A stretch of 64,000 nt of DNA from an uncultured Bacteroidia bacterium (GTDB lineage Bacteria; Bacteroidota; Bacteroidia; Bacteroidales; ML635J-15): the NCBI GenBank assembly GCA_902791865.1, contig CADAXK010000015.1, positions 1 through 64,000 on the forward strand. The letters are read 5' to 3'. The stretch's first letter is position 1. Every line of letters begins with the position of its first letter. Of the stretch, positions 3,009 to 41,755 are shown piece by piece. The position numbers and the translations under genes are program-made. The notes below the pieces were generated by a model. It was given only the letters and a program-made list of their open reading frames with translations. It was not told where the DNA came from and did no database searches.

Positions 3009-4934
3009 TTATTTGACTTCTTCAAAGTCCACGTCCGTGACTTCATCCGAATTGTTGCTTGAGCTTCCCGACTGCTGCTGCTGTCCGCCCATGTTAGGGT
3101 TAGCCTGCTGCTGACCTGCGCCTGCACCGGCACCAGCGTTCTTGTACATGTCTTCGGATGCTGCGTGGAAGGCGTTGTTCAGTGCTTCCATTGCCTTGTC
3201 GATTGCAGCTACATCCTGGCTCTTGTGAGCTTCCTTAAGGTTGTTCAGAGCGGTTTCGATAGGAGCCTTCTTGTCGGCTGGAATCTTGTCGCCCAATTCC
3301 TTGAGCTGCTTTTCGGTCTGGAATATCATCGAGTCGGCCTGGTTGATCTTGTCGATTCTTTCCTTTGCAGCCTTGTCGGCGTTTGCATTGGCTTCGGCTT
3401 CGGCCTTCATACGCTTGATTTCGTCTTCCGAAAGTCCCGATGAAGCTTCGATACGGATGCTCTGCTCCTTGCCAGTGCCCTTGTCCTTTGCCGAAACCTT
3501 CAAGATACCGTTTGCATCGATGTCGAAGGTAACTTCAATCTGCGGAACGCCACGCGGTGCTGCTGGAATGCCGTCGAGGTGGAAACGACCGATGGTCTTG
3601 TTGTCGCTTGCCATCGAACGTTCGCCCTGCAATACGTGGATTTCAACTGATGGCTGGTTGTCGGCAGCGGTCGAGAATACTTCCTGCTTCTTGCAAGGTA
3701 TTGTGGTGTTCGATTCGATGAGCTTTGTCATTACGCCACCCAAAGTCTCGATACCGAGTGACAACGGGGTAACATCGAGAAGCAATACATCGGTAACATC
3801 ACCTGTGAGGACACCGCCCTGGATTGCAGCACCAACAGCCACAACTTCGTCGGGGTTAACGCCCTTCGACGGGGTCTTGCCGAAGAACTGCTTTACCTTT
3901 TCCTGAACTGCCGGGATACGGGTTGAACCGCCGACCAACAGAACTTCGTCAATATCCGATGCCGAGAAACCAGAGTCCTTCAATGCCTGCTGGCAAGGTG
4001 CGATGGTTGCGTTGATAAGACGGTCGGCCAACTGTTCGAACTGCGAACGGGTCAAGGTCTTTACCAAGTGCTTTGGAACACCGTCAACCGGCATGATGTA
4101 CGGCAGGTTGATTTCCGATGATGTCGATGACGACAATTCAATCTTTGCCTTTTCTGCAGCCTCTTTCAGACGCTGGAGTGCGATAGAGTCCTTGCGGAGG
4201 TCAACGCCGTTTTCCTTCTGGAATTCGTCTGCCAGCCATTCGATGATAACGTGGTCGAAATCATCACCGCCGAGATGGGTATCGCCGTTGGTTGACTTTA
4301 CTTCGAAAACGCCGTCGCCAAGTTCAAGGATTGAAATATCGAATGTACCGCCACCGAGGTCGAATACTGCAACCTTCATATCCTTGTTCTTCTTGTCAAG
4401 GCCGTATGCCAAAGCTGCTGCTGTAGGCTCGTTGATGATACGTTTTACCTTCAAGCCTGCGATTTCGCCAGCTTCCTTGGTTGCCTGACGCTGTGAGTCG
4501 CTGAAGTATGCAGGAACGGTGATAACTGCTTCGGTTACATCTTCGCCAAGGTATTCTTCAGCGGTCTTCTTCATCTTCTGGAGGATGATTGCCGAAATTT
4601 CCTGCGGAGTGTAGTTGCGGTCGCCAATCTTAACACGCGGAGTGTTGTTGTCGCCACGTACAACTTCGTAAGGGACACGTTCGATTTCCTTTGTTACGTT
4701 GTCGTATCTTTCGCCCATGAAACGCTTGATTGAGAAAACAGTGTTCAACGGGTTTGTGATAGCCTGACGCTTTGCAGGATCGCCGACCTTGCGCTCGCCG
4801 TCTTTCAAAAATCCTACTATTGAAGGGGTGGTCCTATGACCTTCGCTGTTGGTGATAACAACAGGTTCGCCGCCTTCCATAACTGCCACACATGAATTGG
4901 TGGTACCTAAGTCTATTCCTATAATCTTACTCAT
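3009..4934 (-). CDS. dnaK: Chaperone DnaK (Hsp70)
   Basis: This is the 641-residue cytosolic ATP-dependent chaperone that binds exposed hydrophobic segments of client proteins together with DnaJ and GrpE. The N-terminus carries the phosphate-1 motif IDLGTTNS. Other Hsp70 hallmarks include [20 protein letters not shown] and the substrate-binding segment [17 protein letters not shown], and the acidic C-terminus ends in EEVK after a Gly/Ala/Gln-rich stretch. Length is normal. The gene stands alone: dnaJ, grpE and hrcA are not adjacent. A sigma-54-like sequence lies upstream (4988-5003) and an intrinsic terminator follows the stop. No CIRCE operator is visible. Confidence 0.99.
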
Positions 4935-4987
4935 AATTTTATGTTTTTTTTTGTTTTACAATTTTGAAAAATTCACGACTTGGATAT

Positions 4988-5265: not shown

Positions 5266-5285
5266 AGACGCAAAATTTTGCGTCT
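5266..5285. repeat. Dispersed palindrome, copy 1
   Basis: AGACGCAAAATTTTGCGTCT is a perfect 20-bp palindrome. Exact copies occur at 8815-8834 and 36005-36024, all preceded by GTTG. This copy sits just past the 3' end of the O-antigen ligase-like gene. Confidence 0.9.
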
Positions 5286-5295
5286 GTACAAATGT

Positions 5296-6540
5296 CTAGC
5301 CTTTTAGCCCATTTTTGTTTCCCAACAGCATTATTCCCGTAAACAGACAGAAGAATATTATTCCATTGATAATGCTTAGCATATCTTCGATGCAGAAGAA
5401 ACAGAGGGTTATTATGCACCACCATATCGTTGCGCTGTTGCGCGACTTGATGGCCGTGCGGAACATTGCGAAGAATAGCAGTAGGAGTGAGGCTATTCCC
5501 ATGATTCCGAACGAGGCAAATGTACGCAAAAACTGGTTGTGCGGAGCACATGTGCCAGCGTAGTTTTCGCCCATGCGCAGTTTCATTTTCTTTTCCATTT
5601 CGGCATACACATCGCCTTGACCTGTGCCAATGAGCCAGTTTTCGGAGATGACATCCAACGCGGAAGCCATGCACTTGATGCGGATGGTGGTTGATTCGTT
5701 GCGCGTATATGCTGTTTGTTCATTGTCGTGCTGTGCCTTAAAACTAGCAACCATGCTGTCGATTCTGTATTTTACCATAGGTATTGACATGATGGCGGGG
5801 GCAATGGCAATTATGCTTGCCGTAACCGCTATCGACAGCCATTTCGGAATGCGTTTCGATAGCAACATTCTGATTATTAGATATACAGTATATATGGAAA
5901 GAATCAAAATAGTAATCTTTGACGAAAGCAGGCAGATGAATCCAACATTTGCAATAATGAGAATTATTTCGCTGATAGTTAACAATTTCTGCTGTTTCCA
6001 ATCTCTATGCATCAGGCTCTCGGCAAGTATTATTATGGCAAACATGGCATAGTAGGAATGGTGGTGTGGCGACCTAAGCAGGTATACATAGAAAAACATA
6101 TCCGCATTTTGTGTTTCTGTGTAGTTGCCGTATGCGTTGATTATGCTAATTATCATTATGGCTAGAATCCCGGCGATGAGCGATATTTTTATAAGGTCAA
6201 GCTTTTTTTCGATGCAGTTTTGCCTGAAGGCAGTTGCTATGAACGGGAACGCCAGTAGCGATAGAGCTGTTTCGGTGTTGTGTAGCGCTGTTTTCAGATC
6301 TTCGGAGTAAGTAAGACCGATGAGGTATAGCGCAAAAGGTATTATCATTGCCCAGAAGCCAAGTGTGCGGGCTGATTCGCATAAAGCCTTGTAGTTTCGT
6401 GGCCGTACAAGGAACAAAAGTCCAAGTGCGGCAATTATCGGAGAGGTGTATTCAATGTGCAGGGGGATAAGGAAAGCAACTGCGCAGAGTAGCACAATTT
6501 CGAGCATATCAAGGTAATATGTGGACTTCCTTGTAGTCAT
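5296..6540 (-). CDS. O-antigen ligase / polymerase-like membrane protein
   Basis: This is a polytopic membrane protein of about 414 residues with roughly ten to twelve hydrophobic segments and one larger extracytoplasmic loop rich in charged residues (around FKAQHDNEQTAYTRNESTT). It ends in repeated hydrophobic helices, as in the Wzy_C / O-antigen ligase superfamily. The motif WLIGTGQGDVYAEM followed by PHNQFLRTFASFGIMG is typical of the conserved Wzy_C loop. The start at 6540 (MTTRKSTYY) is preferred over an upstream ATG at 6582, because a -7 promoter element lies between them. It could ligate or polymerise surface glycans; the substrate cannot be told. A second member of the family lies at 28228-29790. 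Confidence 0.75.
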   Translation of the reverse strand: MTTRKSTYYLDMLEIVLLCAVAFLIPLHIEYTSPIIAALGLLFLVRPRNYKALCESARTLGFWAMIIPFALYLIGLTYSEDLKTALHNTETALSLLAFPFIATAFRQNCIEKKLDLIKISLIAGILAIMIISIINAYGNYTETQNADMFFYVYLLRSPHHHSYYAMFAIIILAESLMHRDWKQQKLLTISEIILIIANVGFICLLSSKITILILSIYTVYLIIRMLLSKRIPKWLSIAVTASIIAIAPAIMSIPMVKYRIDSMVASFKAQHDNEQTAYTRNESTTIRIKCMASALDVISENWLIGTGQGDVYAEMEKKMKLRMGENYAGTCAPHNQFLRTFASFGIMGIASLLLLFFAMFRTAIKSRNSATIWWCIITLCFFCIEDMLSIINGIIFFCLFTGIMLLGNKNGLKG

Positions 6541-6549
6541 TTCAGTTTG

Positions 6550-6557
6550 CAAAGTTA
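6550..6557 (-). promoter_or_regulatory. -7 promoter element for the O-antigen ligase-like gene
   Basis: The minus strand reads TAACTTTG (TAnnTTTG). It lies 10 bases before the ATG at 6540, so the transcript would have a very short leader. It argues against the upstream ATG at 6582. Confidence 0.5.
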
Positions 6558-6589
6558 TAAAATTCAAGCAGATGAAAAGCATTAATAAT

Positions 6590-6617
6590 AAAAAAAACGG
6601 GAAACCTAAGTTTCCCG
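6590..6617 (-). terminator. Intrinsic terminator of the DUF4476 gene
   Basis: The minus strand has an 8-bp stem CGGGAAAC / GTTTCCCG with a four-base loop, followed by eight T residues. It begins about 25 bases after the stop of the DUF4476 gene. Confidence 0.85.
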
Positions 6618-6641
6618 CTATGTCTTTTGTCTGTCAATCTT

Positions 6642-8814: not shown

Positions 8815-8834
8815 AGACGCAAAATTTTGCGTCT
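8815..8834. repeat. Dispersed palindrome, copy 2
   Basis: This is an exact copy of AGACGCAAAATTTTGCGTCT. On the plus strand the left flank TTTTATGTTG is shared with the copy at 36005. It abuts the stop codon of the MutS-like gene, where it could act as a 3' RNA hairpin. Confidence 0.9.
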
Positions 8835-30883: not shown

Positions 30884-31786
30884 ATGGCAAAGGCAAATTG
30901 GAGCGGAAAGACTGGTGGCGGTCGTTTCGGACAGAGAGCTATGTTTAAGATTCTCCGTTCGGTCGATGTCAGGTTTGCCTATGTAGTATTGTATTTGGTC
31001 ATACCTTTCAGTATAGCATTTCGTCCGAAGCAATTTCGTGCCATATACTATATGCAAAGGAAACGCTTGCATAGGAATCCTATAATGGCTTTTGTTCAAA
31101 CTATCCGAAACTTCTTGTTGTTTGGTAAGGTGGTGCTCGACAAGTTCGCCATGTTTGCCGGCAACACTGCACAATTCAAGGTTAATGTTCGCGATCAGGA
31201 CTTGTTTTCGCAAATGCTTAGTAAAGAATGCGGTTTCATAACGGTAGGTGCACATGTGGGTAACTTCGAGATTGCAGGATGTACATTGCAGCAGTATAGC
31301 AAGAAGTTTAACTTTATTTCATGGGGTGGCGAAAGCGAGGAAATGATAAGTCATCGTCTCGAGGCGTTCAAGAAAGTCAATCCAGATGCCAAAATAATAA
31401 CAATAGGTAACAATATATCGTATCTTTTCGACATAAAATCGGCTATCGACAAAGGAGAAACTATTATTACTTCGTGCGACAGACTTTGCGGAAGTCCTAA
31501 GCACTACGATGCGGATTTTCTTGGCGAAAAAGCCTCTTTCCCGCTTGGACTTTTCTTGATTGCGACAAAACTCAAGGTTCCAGTATTGGTCGTGCACATA
31601 TTCAAGTACAGAGGTTTGAGGTACGAAGGTTTTGTGAAGGAACTGAAATACGATTCATCTATAAAGTCGGATGTTGAGCAAGCACAGTCGTTGGTTCGGC
31701 AGTATGTTGAAATACTTGAGGATTCTGTTGTCAAGCATCCGCTTCAATGGTTCAATTACTACAATTTCTGGCAACCGGTTGTGTAA
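30884..31786 (+). CDS. Lysophospholipid/lipid A acyltransferase (LpxL/HtrB family)
   Basis: This is a 300-residue inner-membrane acyltransferase. The catalytic HX4(D/E) motif is HVGNFE in VGAHVGNFEIAG, preceded by an N-terminal hydrophobic helix (FAYVVLYLVIPFSIAF). A substrate-binding stretch CDRLCG and the LGEKASFPLGLFLIATK segment follow, as in LpxL-type lauroyl/myristoyl transferases. Its probable task is adding a secondary acyl chain to lipid A. It lies one base downstream of the nitroreductase gene. Some Bacteroidales relatives act on other lipids, so the acceptor is not certain. Confidence 0.85.
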   Translation: MAKANWSGKTGGGRFGQRAMFKILRSVDVRFAYVVLYLVIPFSIAFRPKQFRAIYYMQRKRLHRNPIMAFVQTIRNFLLFGKVVLDKFAMFAGNTAQFKVNVRDQDLFSQMLSKECGFITVGAHVGNFEIAGCTLQQYSKKFNFISWGGESEEMISHRLEAFKKVNPDAKIITIGNNISYLFDIKSAIDKGETIITSCDRLCGSPKHYDADFLGEKASFPLGLFLIATKLKVPVLVVHIFKYRGLRYEGFVKELKYDSSIKSDVEQAQSLVRQYVEILEDSVVKHPLQWFNYYNFWQPVV

Positions 31787-31813
31787 TAACTGGACAAATC
31801 ATAAAATTAGCAT

Positions 31814-31821
31814 TAACTTTG
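31814..31821 (+). promoter_or_regulatory. -7 promoter element for mazG
   Basis: TAACTTTG (TAnnTTTG) lies 21 bases before the ATG at 31843 and supports that start over an upstream ATG at 31747, which would sit inside the preceding gene. The -33 region is weak. Confidence 0.5.
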
Positions 31822-31842
31822 CGGAATACAAATTTTTGCACG

Positions 31843-32619
31843 ATGGAAAAGACTTTAAAGGAATTTCAGAGATTAATTGAGATACTGGACGAACTGCGAG
31901 AGAAATGCCCGTGGGATCGCAAGCAGACAAACGAAAGCCTGCGCATACAGACAATAGAGGAGGTTTACGAACTATCGGATGCTTTGTTGAACAATGATGC
32001 AGACGAAGTGAAAAAGGAGCTTGGTGATGTGCTTTTGCATGTTGCTTTTTATGCCAAAATAGGCAAGGAGAAGGGGCAGTTCGAGTTGTACGATGTGATT
32101 CATGGTATTTGCGAAAAGCTGATTTTCCGCCATCCGCATATCTTTGGCGATGTGAAGGCCGAAACAGCCGAGCAGGTAAAGGAAAACTGGGAGCGCATAA
32201 AGCTTAAGGAAGCGCCGAAAAAGACCGTTCTTGGTGGAGTGCCAGAATCGTTGCCATCCATAATCAAGGCTTACCGCATGCAGGACAAGGCGCGTGGCGT
32301 TGGTTTCGACTGGGACAAGCGCGAGCAAGTGTGGGACAAGCTTAACGAGGAATATAACGAGGTGCTTCTCGAGACTGCAATTTCCGACAATCAGGATAGA
32401 ATTGAGGCTGAATTTGGCGACCTGTTGTTTTCGGTGATAAATGCAGCGCGGCTCTATGGTGTAAATCCCGACACTGCCCTCGAACGCACCAACCGCAAGT
32501 TCAAGAACCGTTTCGGCTACCTCGAGGAAAAGACCATACAGCAAGGTCGCGACCTCAAGGACATGACATTGGCGGAAATGGATGAAATATGGGAGGAATC
32601 GAAGAAATTGTATAAGTAA
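31843..32619 (+). CDS. mazG: Nucleoside triphosphate pyrophosphohydrolase MazG
   Basis: This 258-residue enzyme hydrolyses NTPs and dNTPs to monophosphates and pyrophosphate, cleaning the nucleotide pool. It has the duplicated MazG fold. The N-terminal unit has CPWDRKQTNESLRI, then the metal-binding EEVYELSDAL and EELGDVLLHV-type motif (here KELGDVLLHVAFYAKI). The C-terminal unit has VGFDWDKREQVWDKLNEE and EAEFGDLLFSVIN. Length is normal (about 260). It has its own -7 element. A GC-rich hairpin without a T tract lies between its stop and the RAYT gene. Confidence 0.95.
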   Translation: MEKTLKEFQRLIEILDELREKCPWDRKQTNESLRIQTIEEVYELSDALLNNDADEVKKELGDVLLHVAFYAKIGKEKGQFELYDVIHGICEKLIFRHPHIFGDVKAETAEQVKENWERIKLKEAPKKTVLGGVPESLPSIIKAYRMQDKARGVGFDWDKREQVWDKLNEEYNEVLLETAISDNQDRIEAEFGDLLFSVINAARLYGVNPDTALERTNRKFKNRFGYLEEKTIQQGRDLKDMTLAEMDEIWEESKKLYK

Positions 32620-32636
32620 TATGAATTTGCGTCTTG

Positions 32637-32652
32637 CCCGCATCTTTGCGGG
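32637..32652. repeat. REP-like hairpin directly upstream of the RAYT gene
   Basis: CCCGCA-TCTT-TGCGGG, a 6-bp stem with TCTT loop, sits 16 bases before the RAYT start. No T tract follows, so it is a poor terminator for mazG. The preceding bases TTTGCGTCTT match one half of the dispersed 20-bp palindrome. Confidence 0.7.
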
Positions 32653-32668
32653 TATTAAAACAGCATAA

Positions 32669-33733
32669 ATGCCAAACAAACCAGAACATATAGAACATGG
32701 TTGGCGATATCCGGTTGATTCAAATCGCCATCATCGCGAAAACAGCTGGGATTATTGTGGGCGAGCCATCTATCATATAACACTAGTTGTAGCAGAACGA
32801 CAACATTTGTTTGGTGAGTTAGTTGGTGACAGTGCAGAAAAAGCACAAATAGAACTCAATGAATTTGGACGCAAAGTCAATCGCTTACTTCGTGACACCC
32901 CAGAGTTCTACAAGTCAAAAGGTTATTCGCTTAGAATACTTGCGCTCAAGATTATGCCCGATCATTTGCATGTGGTTATTCATGTCCTAGACCATCTCCC
33001 CAAACCAATAGGAAATGTAATTCGAGGTTTTAAAAGTGCCTGTACGAGTCTTTTTAAGCGTACATATATTGGCGGTGATGACACCGCCGAAATGCACAAT
33101 CACACATCAACTATTCCACCAGTGATTTTGCATTTTGCTACCATCTTTGCTGACGCCGGTAGCATTTGGGAGAAAACCCCTGCAGGTTATCATGAGCGTA
33201 TCCTTCATGCGGAAGGCCAACTTAATAATATGATTTCTTATGTTCACGACAATCCTCGTCGTCTATGGCTGAAGAAAAAGCGTCCCGAATACTTTGCCGT
33301 TCAGCATAATGTGCAGTGGAATGGACATAGCTTTTCTATTGTCGGCAATATTTTGCTTTTGGATAGTTCTTTGTGGGCGGTTCATGTTCGCAGTCGCTTT
33401 TCTGAAGAGGAGGCTCGTAGCTATATGCACGAATGCATAGTTGCTGCAAGAAAAGGTGCAGTATTGGTAGGTGCATTCATTAGCCCCAAAGAAAAGCAGG
33501 TGCTTGAAATGGCAGTAGCAGAAGGCCTTCCTGTTATCTTTTTGGTGCCATATAGTTTCTCGGAATATTCCAAACCAACTGGTAAACTTATTGAAATGTG
33601 TACTAAAGGGAAAATGCTTTTTTTAACTGAAGTTTCTTCTGAAGTTAGCCCGCGCAGAAGTATATCAAGAGAGGTGTGCAATACCCTTAATGCCCTTGCC
33701 GAAGAAATGATGCAAACTACAATAATAAAATAA
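32669..33733 (+). CDS. REP-associated tyrosine transposase (RAYT) with extra C-terminal domain
   Basis: This 354-residue protein has an N-terminal Y1/HUH domain (about 30-200) of the IS200/RAYT type. The metal-binding His-Leu-His motif is His99-His101 in IMPDHLHVVIHV. RAYT hallmarks include GNVIRGFKSACTSLFKR and IWEKTPAGYHERIL, and a candidate catalytic Tyr191 lies in MISYVHDNPRRL. RAYTs cut and join single-stranded REP hairpins. The C-terminal part (about 225-354: GNILLLD, RKGAVLVGAFISPKEK, EGLPVIFLVPYSFSEY, SREVCNTLNALAEEM) looks like a Rossmann-type DprA/LOG domain (inference). It lies between mazG and a glycosyltransferase, two bases before the latter. No terminal inverted repeats or second copy is visible. 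Confidence 0.85.
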   Translation: MPNKPEHIEHGWRYPVDSNRHHRENSWDYCGRAIYHITLVVAERQHLFGELVGDSAEKAQIELNEFGRKVNRLLRDTPEFYKSKGYSLRILALKIMPDHLHVVIHVLDHLPKPIGNVIRGFKSACTSLFKRTYIGGDDTAEMHNHTSTIPPVILHFATIFADAGSIWEKTPAGYHERILHAEGQLNNMISYVHDNPRRLWLKKKRPEYFAVQHNVQWNGHSFSIVGNILLLDSSLWAVHVRSRFSEEEARSYMHECIVAARKGAVLVGAFISPKEKQVLEMAVAEGLPVIFLVPYSFSEYSKPTGKLIEMCTKGKMLFLTEVSSEVSPRRSISREVCNTLNALAEEMMQTTIIK

Positions 33734-33735
33734 AA

Positions 33736-34818
33736 ATGCCTCTCATCATTCTTTCTACCATATTATTGTTACTCCTTTTAATTCAGGCTGTCTTTTATAT
33801 CCTGCCTGCTTTTGCATTGAGGAAAAGCGATGATGAGAAATCCAATGCTGATTTGCCATCAGTTTCTGTAATAATCGCTTGTCGTAACGAATTGCAAAAC
33901 CTAAAATCGAACTTACAATACATAATCAATCAGCGATATCCTGAGTTTGAAATCGTGATTGTCGATGATAATTCCACTGATGGAACTTATGAATATGTTT
34001 CAAATTTGGCGAACCCATCTCCTTGTAGCATAAAACTTGTCAAGAATGATGGCAAAGGCAAAAAAATAGCCCTTTCGTGTGGAGTACGCGCAGCGTCTTA
34101 CGAACATTTGATTTTTACCGATGCCGATTGCCGTCCTGCTTCCGAAAAATGGATTTCGGGCATGATGTTGCACTTCGATGAGGCAAATCCACTAGTTGTT
34201 GGTTACGGCGAATTGTCGGGCAAGACTTTCGCATCCCGTTTTTCTTCGTATGATGCTACTCTTATTGCCATGCAGTATATGGGATTCGCATCTCTCGGGC
34301 ATGCCTACATGGCAGTTGGTCGCAATATTGCATATTCGCGCAAACTTTGGGATACACTTGGCGGTTTTGCATCCCATTCCGACATGGCTTCTGGTGACGA
34401 TGACCTCTTTGTCAGGGAGGCAGCAAAACATATTCGTCCTACCGTATGCTTTTTGCACGATGCAAAGACTATTTCACCAGCAAAGGATAGACTTGCCAAA
34501 TTGTTGCGGCAAAAGTCGAGGCACGTTTCAACGTCTGCAAGGTACAGTTTGCCAGATAAATTCTTGTCGGGAGGCGAAATCGTTACGCGGACATTATTTT
34601 TCGCAATGGCTGTTGCAATGATGTTTGTAAATTGGAAAATTGCACTTGCTTTTGTGGTGCTGCGATTGGCAATGGTTTTGTTTGCTTTAGGCAGGTTTTG
34701 CTCGTTGACAAAAACCGATTCCAATTTATTTATGTCGCTGATATTTGATATCTTTGCACCGATTTTTTATTTGGCATTGTTGGTTTACAGAATCTTTAAT
34801 CGGAAAACGGAATGGTAA
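33736..34818 (+). CDS. Glycosyltransferase family 2 membrane protein
   Basis: This is a 360-residue protein with an N-terminal membrane helix (LIILSTILLLLLLIQ), a GT-A fold GT2 domain and two or three C-terminal membrane helices. Hallmarks are VSVIIACRNE, VDDNSTDGT, FTDADCRP (metal-binding DxD) and SGDDDLFVREA with the late acceptor-site acidic residues. It is expected to transfer a sugar from a nucleotide donor at the inner membrane, in surface glycan or lipid glycosylation. It starts two bases after the RAYT gene and overlaps the sigma-factor gene by 7 bases. Transcription probably comes from further upstream. Confidence 0.9.
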   Translation: MPLIILSTILLLLLLIQAVFYILPAFALRKSDDEKSNADLPSVSVIIACRNELQNLKSNLQYIINQRYPEFEIVIVDDNSTDGTYEYVSNLANPSPCSIKLVKNDGKGKKIALSCGVRAASYEHLIFTDADCRPASEKWISGMMLHFDEANPLVVGYGELSGKTFASRFSSYDATLIAMQYMGFASLGHAYMAVGRNIAYSRKLWDTLGGFASHSDMASGDDDLFVREAAKHIRPTVCFLHDAKTISPAKDRLAKLLRQKSRHVSTSARYSLPDKFLSGGEIVTRTLFFAMAVAMMFVNWKIALAFVVLRLAMVLFALGRFCSLTKTDSNLFMSLIFDIFAPIFYLALLVYRIFNRKTEW

Positions 34819-35996: not shown

Positions 35997-36032
35997 TTAT
36001 GTTGAGACGCAAAATTTTGCGTCTCAACATAA
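35997..36032. repeat. Dispersed palindrome, copy 3, extended to 36 bp
   Basis: The core AGACGCAAAATTTTGCGTCT (36005-36024) is extended on both sides by TTATGTTG and CAACATAA to a perfect 36-bp palindrome. It lies directly after rsmG, where it could form a long 3' hairpin on either strand. Confidence 0.92.
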
Positions 36033-36270: not shown

Positions 36271-36299
36271 AAAGAGATTGCAACAGCAGTCTCTTTTTT
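36271..36299 (+). terminator. Intrinsic terminator of tRNA-Leu
   Basis: AAGAGA ... TCTCTT forms a 6-bp stem around a 12-base loop and is followed by a run of T residues. Confidence 0.75.
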
Positions 36300-36346
36300 T
36301 GTTACACTCTCCAATTTTTTTTTCTGTCGAAAAATGCGGATGTCTC

Positions 36347-36377
36347 TTTGCTTATTTGGCGCATATACATAACTTTG
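36347..36377 (+). promoter_or_regulatory. Consensus Bacteroidetes promoter for the first TPR-CHAT gene
   Basis: TTTG (36347-36350), exactly 19 bases, then TAACTTTG (36370-36377). This is a full match to TTTG-N19-TAnnTTTG. The start codon follows 14 bases later. Confidence 0.8.
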
Positions 36378-36391
36378 CAAAAAAAAGTAAT

Positions 36392-39300
36392 ATGAAGAGA
36401 CTTGCCTTAATTTTAGCGATAATACCATTCTGTCTGCATTCGTTCTCGCAGGTGGAAACTAAGTTGCAGAAAGCCGATGCTCTTGCAAAGGCTTGTCTAT
36501 CAAGCGATGCCGACATATATGCAGAATGCCTTGGCGAAGCCAACGAAATGTATTTTTCGGCTTACAATGATTTTGTTTCGAAAGCCATGTCGGCAACAGA
36601 AATTGGCGAACTGCCATACGCCCGCATGATGTTTCATGTGGGATATTACAGAAAACTGAACTTTTATTTTAAGGAGTGCATTCCATACTACGATACGGCA
36701 ATGACAGTGTATGCAAAAGCCGACAAACTTGACAATAACGATGTATGGCGGTGCTTCGAAATGCTTGATGTGCTGAAAGCGTACTATTCTTACGATATGA
36801 TTGACTATGAAAAAAACTTGCGGTATGCTTTGCTGAATGCCGATTTCACGAAGAAATATCTTAAAAAGCAGTACCACGAACTTTCTTCTGCCATGGAAGA
36901 AGTTGCTTTCGCATATATGAACATAAACGAATACGACAAGGCAGAAGAAGCTATAAATGAAGCATTAAAAGCCGAAGAAAAAGCAGGTGGCAAAGATTCG
37001 GAACATTATTTCAGCCTTGAACAATACAAAGATCTTATTGCATCAGAAAAGGAGTATCCAATAGCAACATATACGATGACAGCCTATCTGCCGATAGAGA
37101 ATCCTGCAAACCGGCGCGATTCGCTTTACAACATGCTTCTAGAGGTCAGGTACGATGTTGAAGAAGCTATGCCGTTGTTCGAGGAACTGGAAACTTCGTT
37201 TGAAAAAGCCGGAATGAAAAACTCTGATGATAGCCTACTTTATGCCAAGTCGTTATATCATATAGCAATACGTTGCTGGGATGCATCACAAAGCAGTGAA
37301 GACGATGAAACCACAGCACTTATGGCAGCTCGTGCTATCCGCTACATGAAGCAGGCAGACGAACTATATGCTTCTTCCATAGAAGCAATCTCCGATATTC
37401 ACGCCAACATATTGTATGAACTAGCTATATTTTATAACAATGGGCGAAACGACAGGGAAACCGCAATGAAATATGCCGAAGCATCATTCGAAATTTTCAA
37501 GAAACTTACATTCAACGAATATATTTTATCAAGTTGCGCGAGCATACTGGATGCGCTTGACAGTTATTATTGCGGTGACGAAATGCGCGACTGCGAAAAG
37601 GCTATCCGCTACAACGAACAGATGGTGGAAATATGTCGCAACGCCGACAACGACTGGTACATTTATGCACTTATTCGAACTGGAAATAATTACTTCAAAA
37701 TAGGAAACTACAACAAGGCGCTGGAATACTATATGCTAGCCTACGAAAACAACGACAATCCCAACGGTGGCGATGCTGAGATTCTGTTGAAACTTGCCGA
37801 CACATACAAGAACCTTGGCGACAGCAAGTTGGAAGAAAAATACCGCCTAATGTATGAAGGTGTAGTTGCTAACGAAATGCCGACAGATGATGACTATTAC
37901 ATTCCAACATCCTATATGTCAATCGCCGACTTCCTGACGGTAGCTGTTGACGATGACGAGGTTGAACTGTTGTACGATAGTTCTTTCCGTCCTATTAAGG
38001 GAACACATTGCGATTCATTGCGCTACGATGCCGTGTGTGCCATTATGAAACGCAGTTCGACCAATCCGAGCGAACGCATAAACAGCACTCGTCCGATAAT
38101 GATTGCATTCGAGGATTATTTTGCAAAAGGGAAAGCCTCCCATGCCGACAGCATCTACTATGCTTATTCGCTTTACAATGTAGGAAAGTACATTAGCGAT
38201 GCATCCAAAGGCTTCAAGGGTATGCAAATGTTGTTGAAAGCAAAGGAAATGTTCGAAGCCTTGTCTCTTACAAATACAAGAAACTATGCCAACACGCTTT
38301 ACGAACTAGCCTTAGTGAAAGACGAATCCGCTGAATATTACATAGATGCGTATGGTGTGTATAAAACATTGCCAACCAATATCTTCATCAATAATCGTTG
38401 CATGAAAATCTTTGGTGAACTGCTGGATTATGGAGAAAAAAGCTACAATAATGAGTTCTCTCTCAAAATCTTCGAAGAATTAGAATCGTATCTCGAACAG
38501 CATCCCGATTATATAGAGAAGGAAGAACTGGAAACTTTAAAAATACAAATCACCATACGAAAGGCCGAATTATATTACAAACTTTTCAACTACGATTCAT
38601 CTCTGCTATGCTACAAGAAGGCCATTTCGATGATGGACAATGCTGGAATGAAAAAAACATATACTTATTGCGAAACTATCCACAAACTTGCAGATATTAG
38701 TCGTTGGAACCACAACTACGATGATGCCAAGAAATACGCCAAGCAGTACGAAAAGCTGTCGAAGAAATTCAAGAAGGAAGAAAACGATGATGGCGAATTT
38801 TGGGCTGGCGATGATGACGGCACAGATATTTATGGCATGGAGGAGCAGAGCGAACTGGAGCAATTGTACCAATACCTATATATGTTAAATACTAGCGTCA
38901 GATCCAACAATGTCAACGATTGCAGACCGTATGCTATTGAAACTTTTGTAAAGATAAAGAATCTGTTTGCGCGCGATGGGTTCAATACAAGTAACGACAG
39001 TATATTTTACGAGTATTCGTTGCTTCATATAGGCTATATCGAATATATAGCCGAAAAATACGATTCCACTTTGGGTTACATGTCGGAACTTGATAGGTTC
39101 CTGCCTCAAAGCAATAGCATTTCGGGTAATGGATACGCAGAAATACATTATTATTACCTGCTTTACAAGGCTCTTGCGCTAGCCGGAAAGGAAGAAAAAC
39201 GGGAAGCGTTGAAGAATTTTGACCTTATACTGGATTATTACAAACTTTTGGAATCCAGAAACGAGTATTATGAGATTGATTATACAATGATGCTTTATGC

Positions 39301-41755
39301 CTCTTATATGTATGCTACGCTTCACGACTACGACAAGGCATTTGTGTATTACGACTATTTGATGTCGCAATTCGATGAAAATGAGATAAGCGATAATTAT
39401 TTCGCCACGAAATATGCAATGGCATCCACCTACGCCGAAATGGGTGAATATGTTTCGGTTATCGGTTGCCTTGAACCCGAATTCAAGCGCTTTGAATATA
39501 CATATGTTGATAGCGATGTTTGTGCTGGAATATGCAACTTGCTCGGCAATGCGTATGTGGCCGTTGGAAATTACGACCGTGCATACAAGTGCTACATTTT
39601 GGCGCAGGAGTCGATAAGGGTTTATCAGGGAGCTGATACTAATGCAGAAGTTCAGACGCTCAACAATCTTGGAAATTTCTGCAAGAAGGCAGGAAAACAC
39701 AGGGAAGCAATCGACTATTACGATGATGCTCTTGAAATGTTGGATAGAATACAGAGCAACAACCCTGCCCAATATGCTATGCTATACGAAAACAAAGGCT
39801 CTTCATACACTATGCTAGGGATGTACGACGAAGCAATGTCGCTTTTCGAGAAATGCCTTGCGATAAATCAGGAAATATTCGGAGAAAACAGTTCGAATTA
39901 TGCTACAACCCTTTGCAATATCGCACTGGCATACAAGTCGAAGGGAGACTATGACAAGGCCTTGAAGAATTACAACGATGCACTAGCCATTTTACGTAAC
40001 ATCTACGACGACAGGCATCCGACTTATGCAGAAACGCTCAACGGCATAGGTGATGTATATTTTGCGATGGGCGAGTATGGCAAGGCTGCAGAAAGTTTCT
40101 CAGATGCAATGGAGATAAACAGGAAGCATCTCGCAAACGACTTTTCGTTCCTTACATCTGCCGAACGCGAAATGTACTGGGAGAAAAACAAGGACATGAG
40201 CCAGCACATACTTCGTTGCGGAAGCAAATTGTCGAACAATGGTGTGATTTCGAGCGGAGCCTACAATGCCGAGTTGATTACCAAGGGCTTGTTGCTGACA
40301 TCAGATGTTGAGTTTACGCGTTCTGTTTACGAAAGTGGCGATTCTGCTCTTATTTCCGATTATGCGGAACTTATTTCCATGAAGGACAAGCTGGGTAAAG
40401 CTTACGAAATGCCTGTTGAGGACAGGTACATCGACTGCCGCAAACTTAAGGAGGAAATAAACGCAGCAGAGCGTGACCTTGTAGCTAGGGTCGAGAAATA
40501 TGGAGGCTTCAATGCATCAATCGGACTTACATGGAAAGATGTGCAGTCGGCAATGCGCAAGGGCGATGTGGCTGTCGAATTTACAAGATTCGAGGTCGAT
40601 TCCTCCGAGACCCGCTACGCCGCACTTTTGGTTAACAAGTTTATGAAATCGCCGATGTTTGTTCCGCTATGTTCCGAAAAGGACTTGCAAAGACTTTTGC
40701 GCACAGGCGTTATGCCCGAAAAGCCATCTGATGACCGCGGTGCAACCGTTTTGCGCGACAGACGCATGGGCGTATATACATCCACCGACTTGTACAATGC
40801 AATTTGGAAGCCTCTGGAAAAGTATTTCACGCCAAATGCACGCATATATTTCGCTCCGACAGGCTTACTGCATCAGGTAGCGATAGAGTATGCAATGGTT
40901 AATTCCACAAAGTCAATTTCGGACATCTACGAAATTTACCGCGTATCATCCACTCGTTTCCTTGCCATGGACTATTCGCCACGTCCGTTTGACGAGGCCG
41001 TGCTGTATGGTGGCATACGCTACGATTCCGATCCTGCATCCATGAAGCGCGAAAGCGAACGCTTTGGAACGCGAGCAGCATCATATAATTCATTTGCCGA
41101 CATCAGTAGGGATGAGGAAAGGACGAGTTTGAGTTATCTGCCAGGCACCAAAACCGAGGTAGAAACCATTAATGCTAAACTTAAAGCCGGAAAAATCAAG
41201 GTCGACATGCATATAGGCGAGGCTGCCAACGAAGAATCGTTCAAGAACTTGTCGGGGAATAAGGTTTCGCTTTTGCATATTGCAACACACGGATTTTATG
41301 TTCCTGCCGATACTATTCTCAATTCAGAGCAGTCGCTCAACTTGTCGGGACTTTTGCTTGCTGGTGCCAACAACATTTGGACAAACCGACCAGTTCCAGA
41401 GGGCGTTGAGGATGGTGTGCTCACTGCAAAGGAGATAAGCAATATGGATTTGCGTGATGCTGATATGGTGGTTCTTTCAGCCTGCCAGACAGGGCTTGGC
41501 GAAATTACCGATGAAGGCGTTTTCGGACTTCAGCGCGGATTCAAGAAAGCAGGTGTGCATACGCTCATAATGAGCCTCTGGTCGGTTGATGACAAAGCCA
41601 CGCAGTTGATGATGACCGAGTTCTACTCAAATCTGATGGCAGGAATGTCGAAGCGCGAAGCTTTCCTGAAGGCTCAGCGCACATTGAAGGAGACAAAAGG
41701 CTTCGAGAATCCGAGATTCTGGGCTGCATTTATAATGTTGGATGGAAACAAATAA
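36392..41755 (+). CDS. Exported TPR-CHAT (caspase-like) protein 1
   Basis: This is a very large protein of about 1787 residues with a signal peptide (MKRLALILAIIPFCLHSFSQ), so it acts in the periplasm or at the surface. About 1250 residues of irregular TPR-like helices follow, with a canonical TPR block near the end of the array (KALKNYNDALAILRN). The C-terminal CHAT domain is a caspase/separase-type cysteine protease fold: catalytic His1633 in LLHIATHGFYVP and Cys1698 in VVLSACQTGLGE are both kept. The start at 36392 follows a consensus promoter; an upstream in-frame ATG at 36278 lies inside the tRNA terminator and is rejected. A paralogue follows downstream. The target is unknown. Confidence 0.88.
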   Translation: MKRLALILAIIPFCLHSFSQVETKLQKADALAKACLSSDADIYAECLGEANEMYFSAYNDFVSKAMSATEIGELPYARMMFHVGYYRKLNFYFKECIPYYDTAMTVYAKADKLDNNDVWRCFEMLDVLKAYYSYDMIDYEKNLRYALLNADFTKKYLKKQYHELSSAMEEVAFAYMNINEYDKAEEAINEALKAEEKAGGKDSEHYFSLEQYKDLIASEKEYPIATYTMTAYLPIENPANRRDSLYNMLLEVRYDVEEAMPLFEELETSFEKAGMKNSDDSLLYAKSLYHIAIRCWDASQSSEDDETTALMAARAIRYMKQADELYASSIEAISDIHANILYELAIFYNNGRNDRETAMKYAEASFEIFKKLTFNEYILSSCASILDALDSYYCGDEMRDCEKAIRYNEQMVEICRNADNDWYIYALIRTGNNYFKIGNYNKALEYYMLAYENNDNPNGGDAEILLKLADTYKNLGDSKLEEKYRLMYEGVVANEMPTDDDYYIPTSYMSIADFLTVAVDDDEVELLYDSSFRPIKGTHCDSLRYDAVCAIMKRSSTNPSERINSTRPIMIAFEDYFAKGKASHADSIYYAYSLYNVGKYISDASKGFKGMQMLLKAKEMFEALSLTNTRNYANTLYELALVKDESAEYYIDAYGVYKTLPTNIFINNRCMKIFGELLDYGEKSYNNEFSLKIFEELESYLEQHPDYIEKEELETLKIQITIRKAELYYKLFNYDSSLLCYKKAISMMDNAGMKKTYTYCETIHKLADISRWNHNYDDAKKYAKQYEKLSKKFKKEENDDGEFWAGDDDGTDIYGMEEQSELEQLYQYLYMLNTSVRSNNVNDCRPYAIETFVKIKNLFARDGFNTSNDSIFYEYSLLHIGYIEYIAEKYDSTLGYMSELDRFLPQSNSISGNGYAEIHYYYLLYKALALAGKEEKREALKNFDLILDYYKLLESRNEYYEIDYTMMLYASYMYATLHDYDKAFVYYDYLMSQFDENEISDNYFATKYAMASTYAEMGEYVSVIGCLEPEFKRFEYTYVDSDVCAGICNLLGNAYVAVGNYDRAYKCYILAQESIRVYQGADTNAEVQTLNNLGNFCKKAGKHREAIDYYDDALEMLDRIQSNNPAQYAMLYENKGSSYTMLGMYDEAMSLFEKCLAINQEIFGENSSNYATTLCNIALAYKSKGDYDKALKNYNDALAILRNIYDDRHPTYAETLNGIGDVYFAMGEYGKAAESFSDAMEINRKHLANDFSFLTSAEREMYWEKNKDMSQHILRCGSKLSNNGVISSGAYNAELITKGLLLTSDVEFTRSVYESGDSALISDYAELISMKDKLGKAYEMPVEDRYIDCRKLKEEINAAERDLVARVEKYGGFNASIGLTWKDVQSAMRKGDVAVEFTRFEVDSSETRYAALLVNKFMKSPMFVPLCSEKDLQRLLRTGVMPEKPSDDRGATVLRDRRMGVYTSTDLYNAIWKPLEKYFTPNARIYFAPTGLLHQVAIEYAMVNSTKSISDIYEIYRVSSTRFLAMDYSPRPFDEAVLYGGIRYDSDPASMKRESERFGTRAASYNSFADISRDEERTSLSYLPGTKTEVETINAKLKAGKIKVDMHIGEAANEESFKNLSGNKVSLLHIATHGFYVPADTILNSEQSLNLSGLLLAGANNIWTNRPVPEGVEDGVLTAKEISNMDLRDADMVVLSACQTGLGEITDEGVFGLQRGFKKAGVHTLIMSLWSVDDKATQLMMTEFYSNLMAGMSKREAFLKAQRTLKETKGFENPRFWAAFIMLDGNK

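Follow-up and report, generated by a model that had tools for sequence, protein, structure and literature searches.

A RAYT-type HUH enzyme fused to a truncated DprA-like domain in Bacteroidales, with hairpins private to its gene as likely substrates

Among domesticated transposases of bacteria the RAYTs are the best known, but what the host gains from them is still an open question. The closest described relatives of the protein analyzed here form subclass 2.4 of the RAYT/TnpAREP class (Bertels group 4), with which it has in common the HUH and Y-x3-NP motifs, a low copy number and hairpins near the gene (PMC6006769). Subclass 2.4 proteins have a median length of 194 aa, consist of a core domain without extension and carry the HuH motif NH[IFV]H, and in-gene hairpins between the HuH and Y codons are a hallmark of the subclass (PMC6006769). 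C-terminal extensions are known elsewhere in TnpAREP, HTH or DnaA_C-like in subclass 2.1 and subclass-specific in 2.3, and no DprA or Rossmann domain is named among the extensions listed (PMC6006769). A second related system is the TIRtron, or TIRYT, defined by terminal inverted repeats private to the gene (PMC3733652). For the other half of our protein, the reference is DprA, and the Rossmann domain of HpDprA by itself binds both single- and double-stranded DNA (PMC4489622).

We analyzed a 64,000-nucleotide stretch of DNA from an uncultured Bacteroidia bacterium (the window), in which an open reading frame had been predicted to encode a RAYT transposase with an extra DprA/LOG-like C-terminal domain. 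The frame was confirmed at 32669-33733 on the + strand, with an ATG start and 354 aa. Its product is probably a RAYT/TnpAREP-type HUH single-strand nuclease with a truncated DprA/SMF-type Rossmann domain at the C-terminus and a predicted role in hairpin processing. The HUH enzyme, the in-gene hairpins, the private flanking repeats and the DprA fold are each already known, and it is the DprA fusion that appears to be new; our literature search, which had most subscription papers outside its reach, found no earlier description of a RAYT-DprA fusion. An HUH enzyme joined to the single-strand-handling fold of natural transformation, with private hairpins as its likely substrates, makes a compact and testable system, and single-strand DNA processing, recombination and regulation are the candidate functions on the host side.

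Two conserved halves of the protein

The HUH/Y1 catalytic domain of RAYT type (residues 23-211; 32735-33301, +) was recognized by NCBIfam, Pfam and Foldseek. The HUH motif D98-H99-L100-H101 lies at 32960-32971 (+) and the catalytic Tyr191 with Asn195 (Y-x3-NP) at 33239-33253 (+), and D98, H99, H101, Y191 and N195, which make up the class 2 TnpAY1 (RAYT/TnpAREP) signature, are invariant in all 37 homologues. The two histidines and the YVHDNP tyrosine named in the original prediction are thus present at the expected codons (H99, 32963-32965; H101, 32969-32971; Tyr191, 33239-33241). The RAYT identity is supported by a match of the model REP_Tyr_transpos (NF047646) to residues 72-200 with E 1e-10, which at 41.7 bits falls short of the curated cut-off (80), and by structure: with the AlphaFold2 model of the full-length protein (pLDDT 82.6, pTM 0.75), the front part matched in the PDB the IS200/IS605 transposase ISDra2 TnpA (2xqc, E 2.6e-6) and, with E 1.1e-3, a RAYT in complex with a REP hairpin (4er8). 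Pfam Y1_Tnp matches with E 6e-4, below its curated cut-off, and both family databases detect the HUH part alone in the 354-aa protein. IS200/IS605 TnpA has the HUH/Y1 fold, the catalytic residues and the gene-near hairpins in common with our protein, but the latter has Y-x3-N rather than Q, an extra domain, no adjoining TnpB and no recent copies. Subclass 2.4 differs in turn, since our protein has DHLH (DHxH in the family) and a 143-aa DprA-like extension, and because of these two features we do not file it as a 2.4 member.

Residues 212-354 (33302-33730, +) form a truncated DprA/SMF-type Rossmann domain as judged from AlphaFold2, Foldseek and a bridge through stand-alone homologues to PF02481. 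About 130 further residues had been noted behind the tyrosine; the C-terminal patterns are where they were expected, but the extension is longer, about 143 residues. Modeled by itself, the domain reached pLDDT 85.0 and pTM 0.83. With the full protein as query, its back part matched HpDprA (4ljk, E 4.5e-4) and ShosA (8zva, E 2.6e-6), and with the isolated domain ShosA (8zva) was the top match (E 7.6e-5), followed by HpDprA (E 2.8e-4 with 4ljr, to 4.4e-3) and SpDprA (E 2.6e-3 to 7.9e-3), all with probability 1.00, then by one further DprA and nothing convincing beyond. The alignments with ShosA 8zva and HpDprA 4ljr cover about 130 columns, and the superposition on the DprA matches is loose (4.4-5.8 Å). 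For the strands that the domain retains, the Rossmann fold is of the DprA type (probability 1.00 with both HpDprA and SpDprA), in line with that part of the original prediction.

Direct comparison of the domain with full DprA profiles is weak but collinear (E 0.012-0.02, probability 2-4), and none of 21 family members matched PF02481 in Pfam. A profile of the domain, searched against 393 genomes from the order, reached stand-alone proteins of about 150 aa from other Bacteroidota (L111-L118) with E 1e-13 to 6e-6 per genome, and the two compare with an hhalign probability of 98.4. Five of six tested stand-alone proteins match PF02481 (DNA_processg_A) with E 9e-7 to 8e-5, all of them below the cut-off (29.6 bits). 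The combined profile of the domain and the stand-alone proteins aligned with the DprA of relatives over 127 columns (E 1.5e-5, probability 79.5), and the N-domain, as control, gave E 0.47-0.55. The proposed sequence link between the domain and DprA, which supports the structure search, is therefore dependent on the stand-alone intermediates. These DprA-like proteins appear related to PsyrA as well: three that we tested match the PADLOC model of this DprA-like antitoxin with E 3e-9 to 4e-7, a model that does not match the two-domain protein itself.

Mapped on DprA, the domain runs from just before the GSR loop through the RNR helix, with GSR-like, SGxAxGID-like, YP-like and RNR-like motifs in the same order as in DprA/SMF (PF02481; HpDprA 4ljk, 5mll). 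It differs from DprA in its fusion to an HUH domain and in its end after the RNR-type helix, the later strands and the DML1 winged helix being absent. The GSR arginine is kept in most members and the flanking arginines of RNR are not. Two other residues are invariant in 37 of 37 proteins: Glu275 (33491-33493, +), which we placed by eye opposite the Asp in the SGxAxGID loop, and Asn341 (33689-33691, +), which aligns with the Asn of the RNR motif in the profile alignment.

Distribution, genomic position and hairpins

Matches were found in 14 of 61 genomes of relatives, mostly of the same genus, and a contig search detected two-domain homologues in other Bacteroidales records, including Muribaculaceae. 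Across the order sample the domain matched in 25 of 393 genomes; of the 30 loci fetched, 22 encode the two-domain protein and the remaining eight make up the stand-alone group. In a phylum-wide sample of 395 genomes, the matches outside the gene's own genome were all stand-alone proteins, apart from a single weak and partial one within a frame of 675 aa. On present sampling, the RAYT-DprA fusion is a Bacteroidales feature. The architecture extends beyond this gene and, because the C-terminal part is conserved in homologues, it is not the fusion or frameshift artefact that had been considered at the outset; the two-domain homologues rule this out. Both parts are under purifying selection: over 14 pairs (NG86), dN/dS ranges from 0.04 to 0.19 in the N-part and from 0.06 to 0.27 in the C-part, mostly about 0.1, with very few changes behind the value of 0.27. 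No relative of the two-domain gene was found in plasmids and phages (tblastn) or in viral contigs, and a search among viral folds had no hit with E 0.001 or better; on these searches we rejected phage, plasmid or viral carriage. Structured RNA at the locus was likewise rejected, as an Rfam scan of 31500-34500 gave no match.

Flanking the gene are mazG (31843-32619, +) on one side and a glycosyltransferase gene (33736-34818, +) on the other, an order found in five genomes. In four relatives (G416, G409, G396, G410) mazG and the glycosyltransferase gene are adjacent and the two-domain gene is absent, so it counts as a variable gene at this site. The suggestion of a domesticated RAYT fits the constant position in five genomes but not the four relatives with an empty site. 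The gene had also been called a single copy, which is incorrect: three further two-domain paralogues are present in its own genome (C3:311625, C2:111140 and C4:47492), together with several single-domain RAYT-like genes. The copies within the genome are divergent, at 55% identity or less, and are not recent transposition copies.

About 15 nt before the ATG stands a hairpin, TGCCCGCATCTTTGCGGGTA (TGCCCGCA-TCTT-TGCGGGTA; 32635-32654, +; DNA fold z -2.27), which is slightly degraded and the only copy in its genome. In the orthologue L020 a 31-nt stretch containing the upstream hairpin has an exact, in-frame repeat within the gene, which starts at gene nt 458 and falls between the codons of the HUH motif and of the tyrosine. 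The place of this in-gene hairpin, present in orthologues L020, L010 and L011, corresponds to 33126-33156 (+), where the window copy has decayed. With its in-gene hairpin decayed and the upstream one slightly degraded, the window copy may be partly degenerate at the DNA level. A second in-gene palindrome, GGCGGTGATGACACCGCC, is located in the HUH-Tyr loop (33071-33088, +; DNA fold z -2.72). In two relatives (G415 and G402) the in-gene copy reads TGTCCGCA-TCTT-TGCGGACA, in which both arms have changed and the pairing is kept by compensatory changes, and these two and a third (G400) have exactly two hairpin copies each, all at this gene. In the C3-type paralogues (group 2), GCGACG-N4-CGTCGC precedes the gene and its reverse follows it, an inverted pair that was not found away from the genes in the genomes searched. 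In group 3 (L024-L026, L041), CCCGAATTNAATTCGGG occupies the HUH-Tyr loop, with one further copy elsewhere in a 399-kb sample of G401.

A search for palindromes beside the homologues had been proposed, and such palindromes were found. The absence of terminal inverted repeats claimed for this gene is true in a narrow sense only, given the upstream hairpin here and the inverted pair at the C3 paralogue. Flanking by REP-like hairpins, a RAYT feature, is seen as one upstream hairpin at the window gene and as the inverted pair at the C3-type paralogues, and the in-frame REP insertion between HuH and Y codons that characterizes subclass 2.4 is seen in L020, L010/L011 and group 3 and has decayed in the window. 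The many dispersed cognate REPs of canonical RAYTs were not found: neither the hairpin of the window gene and its orthologues (group 1) nor that of group 2 has dispersed copies in the gene's own genome (G000) or eight relatives, or specifically in 797 kb of G000 stretches. In these genomes dispersed cognate REPs are thereby ruled out for both hairpins, which in the tested cases are private to their genes, whereas those of subclass 2.4 are dispersed. This scarcity does not put the window protein outside the RAYT/TnpAREP class, because subclasses without REPs exist (PMC6006769).

Proposed action and alternative readings

Under the reading that we favor, the HUH domain would bind its own hairpins and nick and rejoin them when the strand is single, as on the lagging strand or in incoming DNA, and the reaction at these private hairpins would be strand-specific. 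The DprA-like domain may hold or position the adjoining single strand, or may sense a nucleotide-type ligand, and could in this way restrain or direct the HUH reaction. The protein would then be a low-copy, locally acting enzyme of single-strand DNA processing and not a disperser of many REPs, and one or two private hairpins are its likely substrates.

The main rival is an auto-regulatory role of the DprA-like part, possible but considerably less probable, in which it would be an antitoxin-like DprA/SMF module, as in ShosA and PsyrA/RqlI, that holds the HUH nuclease in check or acts as a sensor of a nucleotide ligand. RqlI is a DprA-like protein. Its constraint of the RecQ-like helicase RqlH (PMC4670107) offers a precedent, and the rank of ShosA as top structure match of the isolated domain, the PsyrA matches of the stand-alone homologues and the invariant E275 and N341, which suggest a pocket, all agree with such a module. 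Yet ShosA and DprA have a common fold, so that the match cannot tell the two roles apart; the two-domain protein itself has no PsyrA match; and, unlike in the ShosA/PsyrA (RqlI) antitoxins, the domain is fused to an HUH domain and no toxin gene partner was identified beside the gene.

Decay of an insertion sequence, IS200-like or of TIRtron type, with the extra domain as passive baggage, we consider improbable. Hairpins private to their genes are TIRtron-like (PMC3733652), and the C3-type paralogue group resembles TIRtrons in having a tyrosine-transposase gene with private flanking inverted repeats; the empty mazG-glycosyltransferase site in four relatives and the decayed in-gene hairpin of the window would also fit. 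From TIRtrons the window gene differs in having no downstream partner hairpin, and the TIRtron text consulted (PMC3733652) describes no DprA domain. Decay is opposed by the low dN/dS of both domains across many lineages, the same position in five genomes, the catalytic and C-domain residues that are invariant in 37 proteins, and the divergence of the copies within the genome.

In one relative the gene is a mosaic. Over gene nt 30-579, the orthologue L010 (G415) differs from L011 at 15 of 535 sites and from the window at 123 of 535, and over nt 594-1062 it differs from the window at only 4 of 469 sites (99% identical) and from L011 at 132 of 469; the gene after L010 differs from both (122/535 and 80/535). 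No such run arose in 2000 shuffles (0/2000). The switch comes shortly after the codon of Tyr191, the C-terminal segment having been exchanged as a block. Since G415 is an 80% complete MAG, an assembly error is possible, but it is less likely because the switch goes there and back. Comparison of the group-1 with the group-2 paralogues gives 35% identity over residues 23-130 and 66-75% over the part after the in-gene hairpin place, a contrast (N 35%, C 66%) that suggests an older exchange. The N-part tree separates the two groups, with one clade not rejected (AU p 0.107), and the identity contrast is the only evidence that points to this putative module exchange.

Such exchanges would be explained if hairpins and enzyme formed a system that reshuffles its own gene, which we regard as rather far-fetched. 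Cutting of single-stranded DNA at the upstream and in-gene hairpins would swap the HUH half, and with it the hairpin specificity, between copies, and the Tyr helix with the DprA-like half, handling the strand for rejoining, would be retained or swapped as a cassette. The jump in identity past the in-gene hairpin place and the near-identity of the L010 C-domain segment with the window fit this scheme, but in L010 the switch is some 100 nt past the in-gene hairpin instead of at it, and ordinary homologous recombination is enough to account for the exchanges. Finally, a LOG-type (lysine decarboxylase-like) C-terminal domain, the other half of the DprA/LOG prediction, draws some plausibility from the SLOG superfamily fold common to LOG and DprA but has almost no probability left and is rejected on both structural and family grounds, LOG structures being absent from the best 50 Foldseek matches, Pfam LOG matching 0 of 21 members and the stand-alone homologues matching DNA_processg_A instead.

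Other hairpins and repeats in the window and in related genomes

Besides the hairpins at the two-domain genes, we noticed several other repeat families. The perfect palindrome AGACGCAAAATTTTGCGTCT occurs three times in the window (5266-5285, 8815-8834 and 36005-36024) and in six exact copies in 797 kb of its own genome, forming a dispersed REP-like family. In a relative, a single-domain RAYT gene carries this hairpin within it (L029:1787-1806), which suggests that an L029-type single-domain RAYT is the partner enzyme of these hairpins. Another single-domain RAYT gene, in the window's own genome (L006:1446-1465, C21), contains GGACGATGCATGCATCGTCC, and five GACGATGC-N2-GCATCGTC hairpins were found in the 797-kb sample (L126, L127, L128 and L143 among the sites); the L006 RAYT and these hairpins are likely a RAYT/REP pair. 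A further dispersed hairpin is built around GGCGCAA-N4-TTGCGCC (L129:14932, L143:14674, L154:9631, L160:1049), mostly with a GTAG/CTAC foot like the 'double foot' REP type of subclass 2.4.

In related genomes, the Muribaculaceae two-domain homologue L013 has on either side a long array of a roughly 22-bp repeat (AAAGTCTTTCGTCGAAGGTGCC), at 4529-4968 and 5931-6638, with about 20 copies before the gene and 28 after it. A 42-bp tandem repeat with CGGCATGATATGCCGG lies directly upstream of the two-domain gene of L012 (4842-4957), which itself holds a related palindrome, CCGCATATTATGCGG. The relative G401 has clustered palindromes ATGCTGAATTTATTTCAGCAT and ATCCTGAAACAAGTTCAGGAT (L186:9789, L190:3296, L190:14744-14944, L193:4502), and ATCCTGAAACAAGTTCAGGAT also adjoins the single-domain RAYT genes L039 and L040. 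In the window, 36278-41755 (+) is an 1825-aa open reading frame in which we recognized, by eye only, TPR-like repeats and a CHAT-like C-terminal part (ATHGFY, VVLSACQTGLG).
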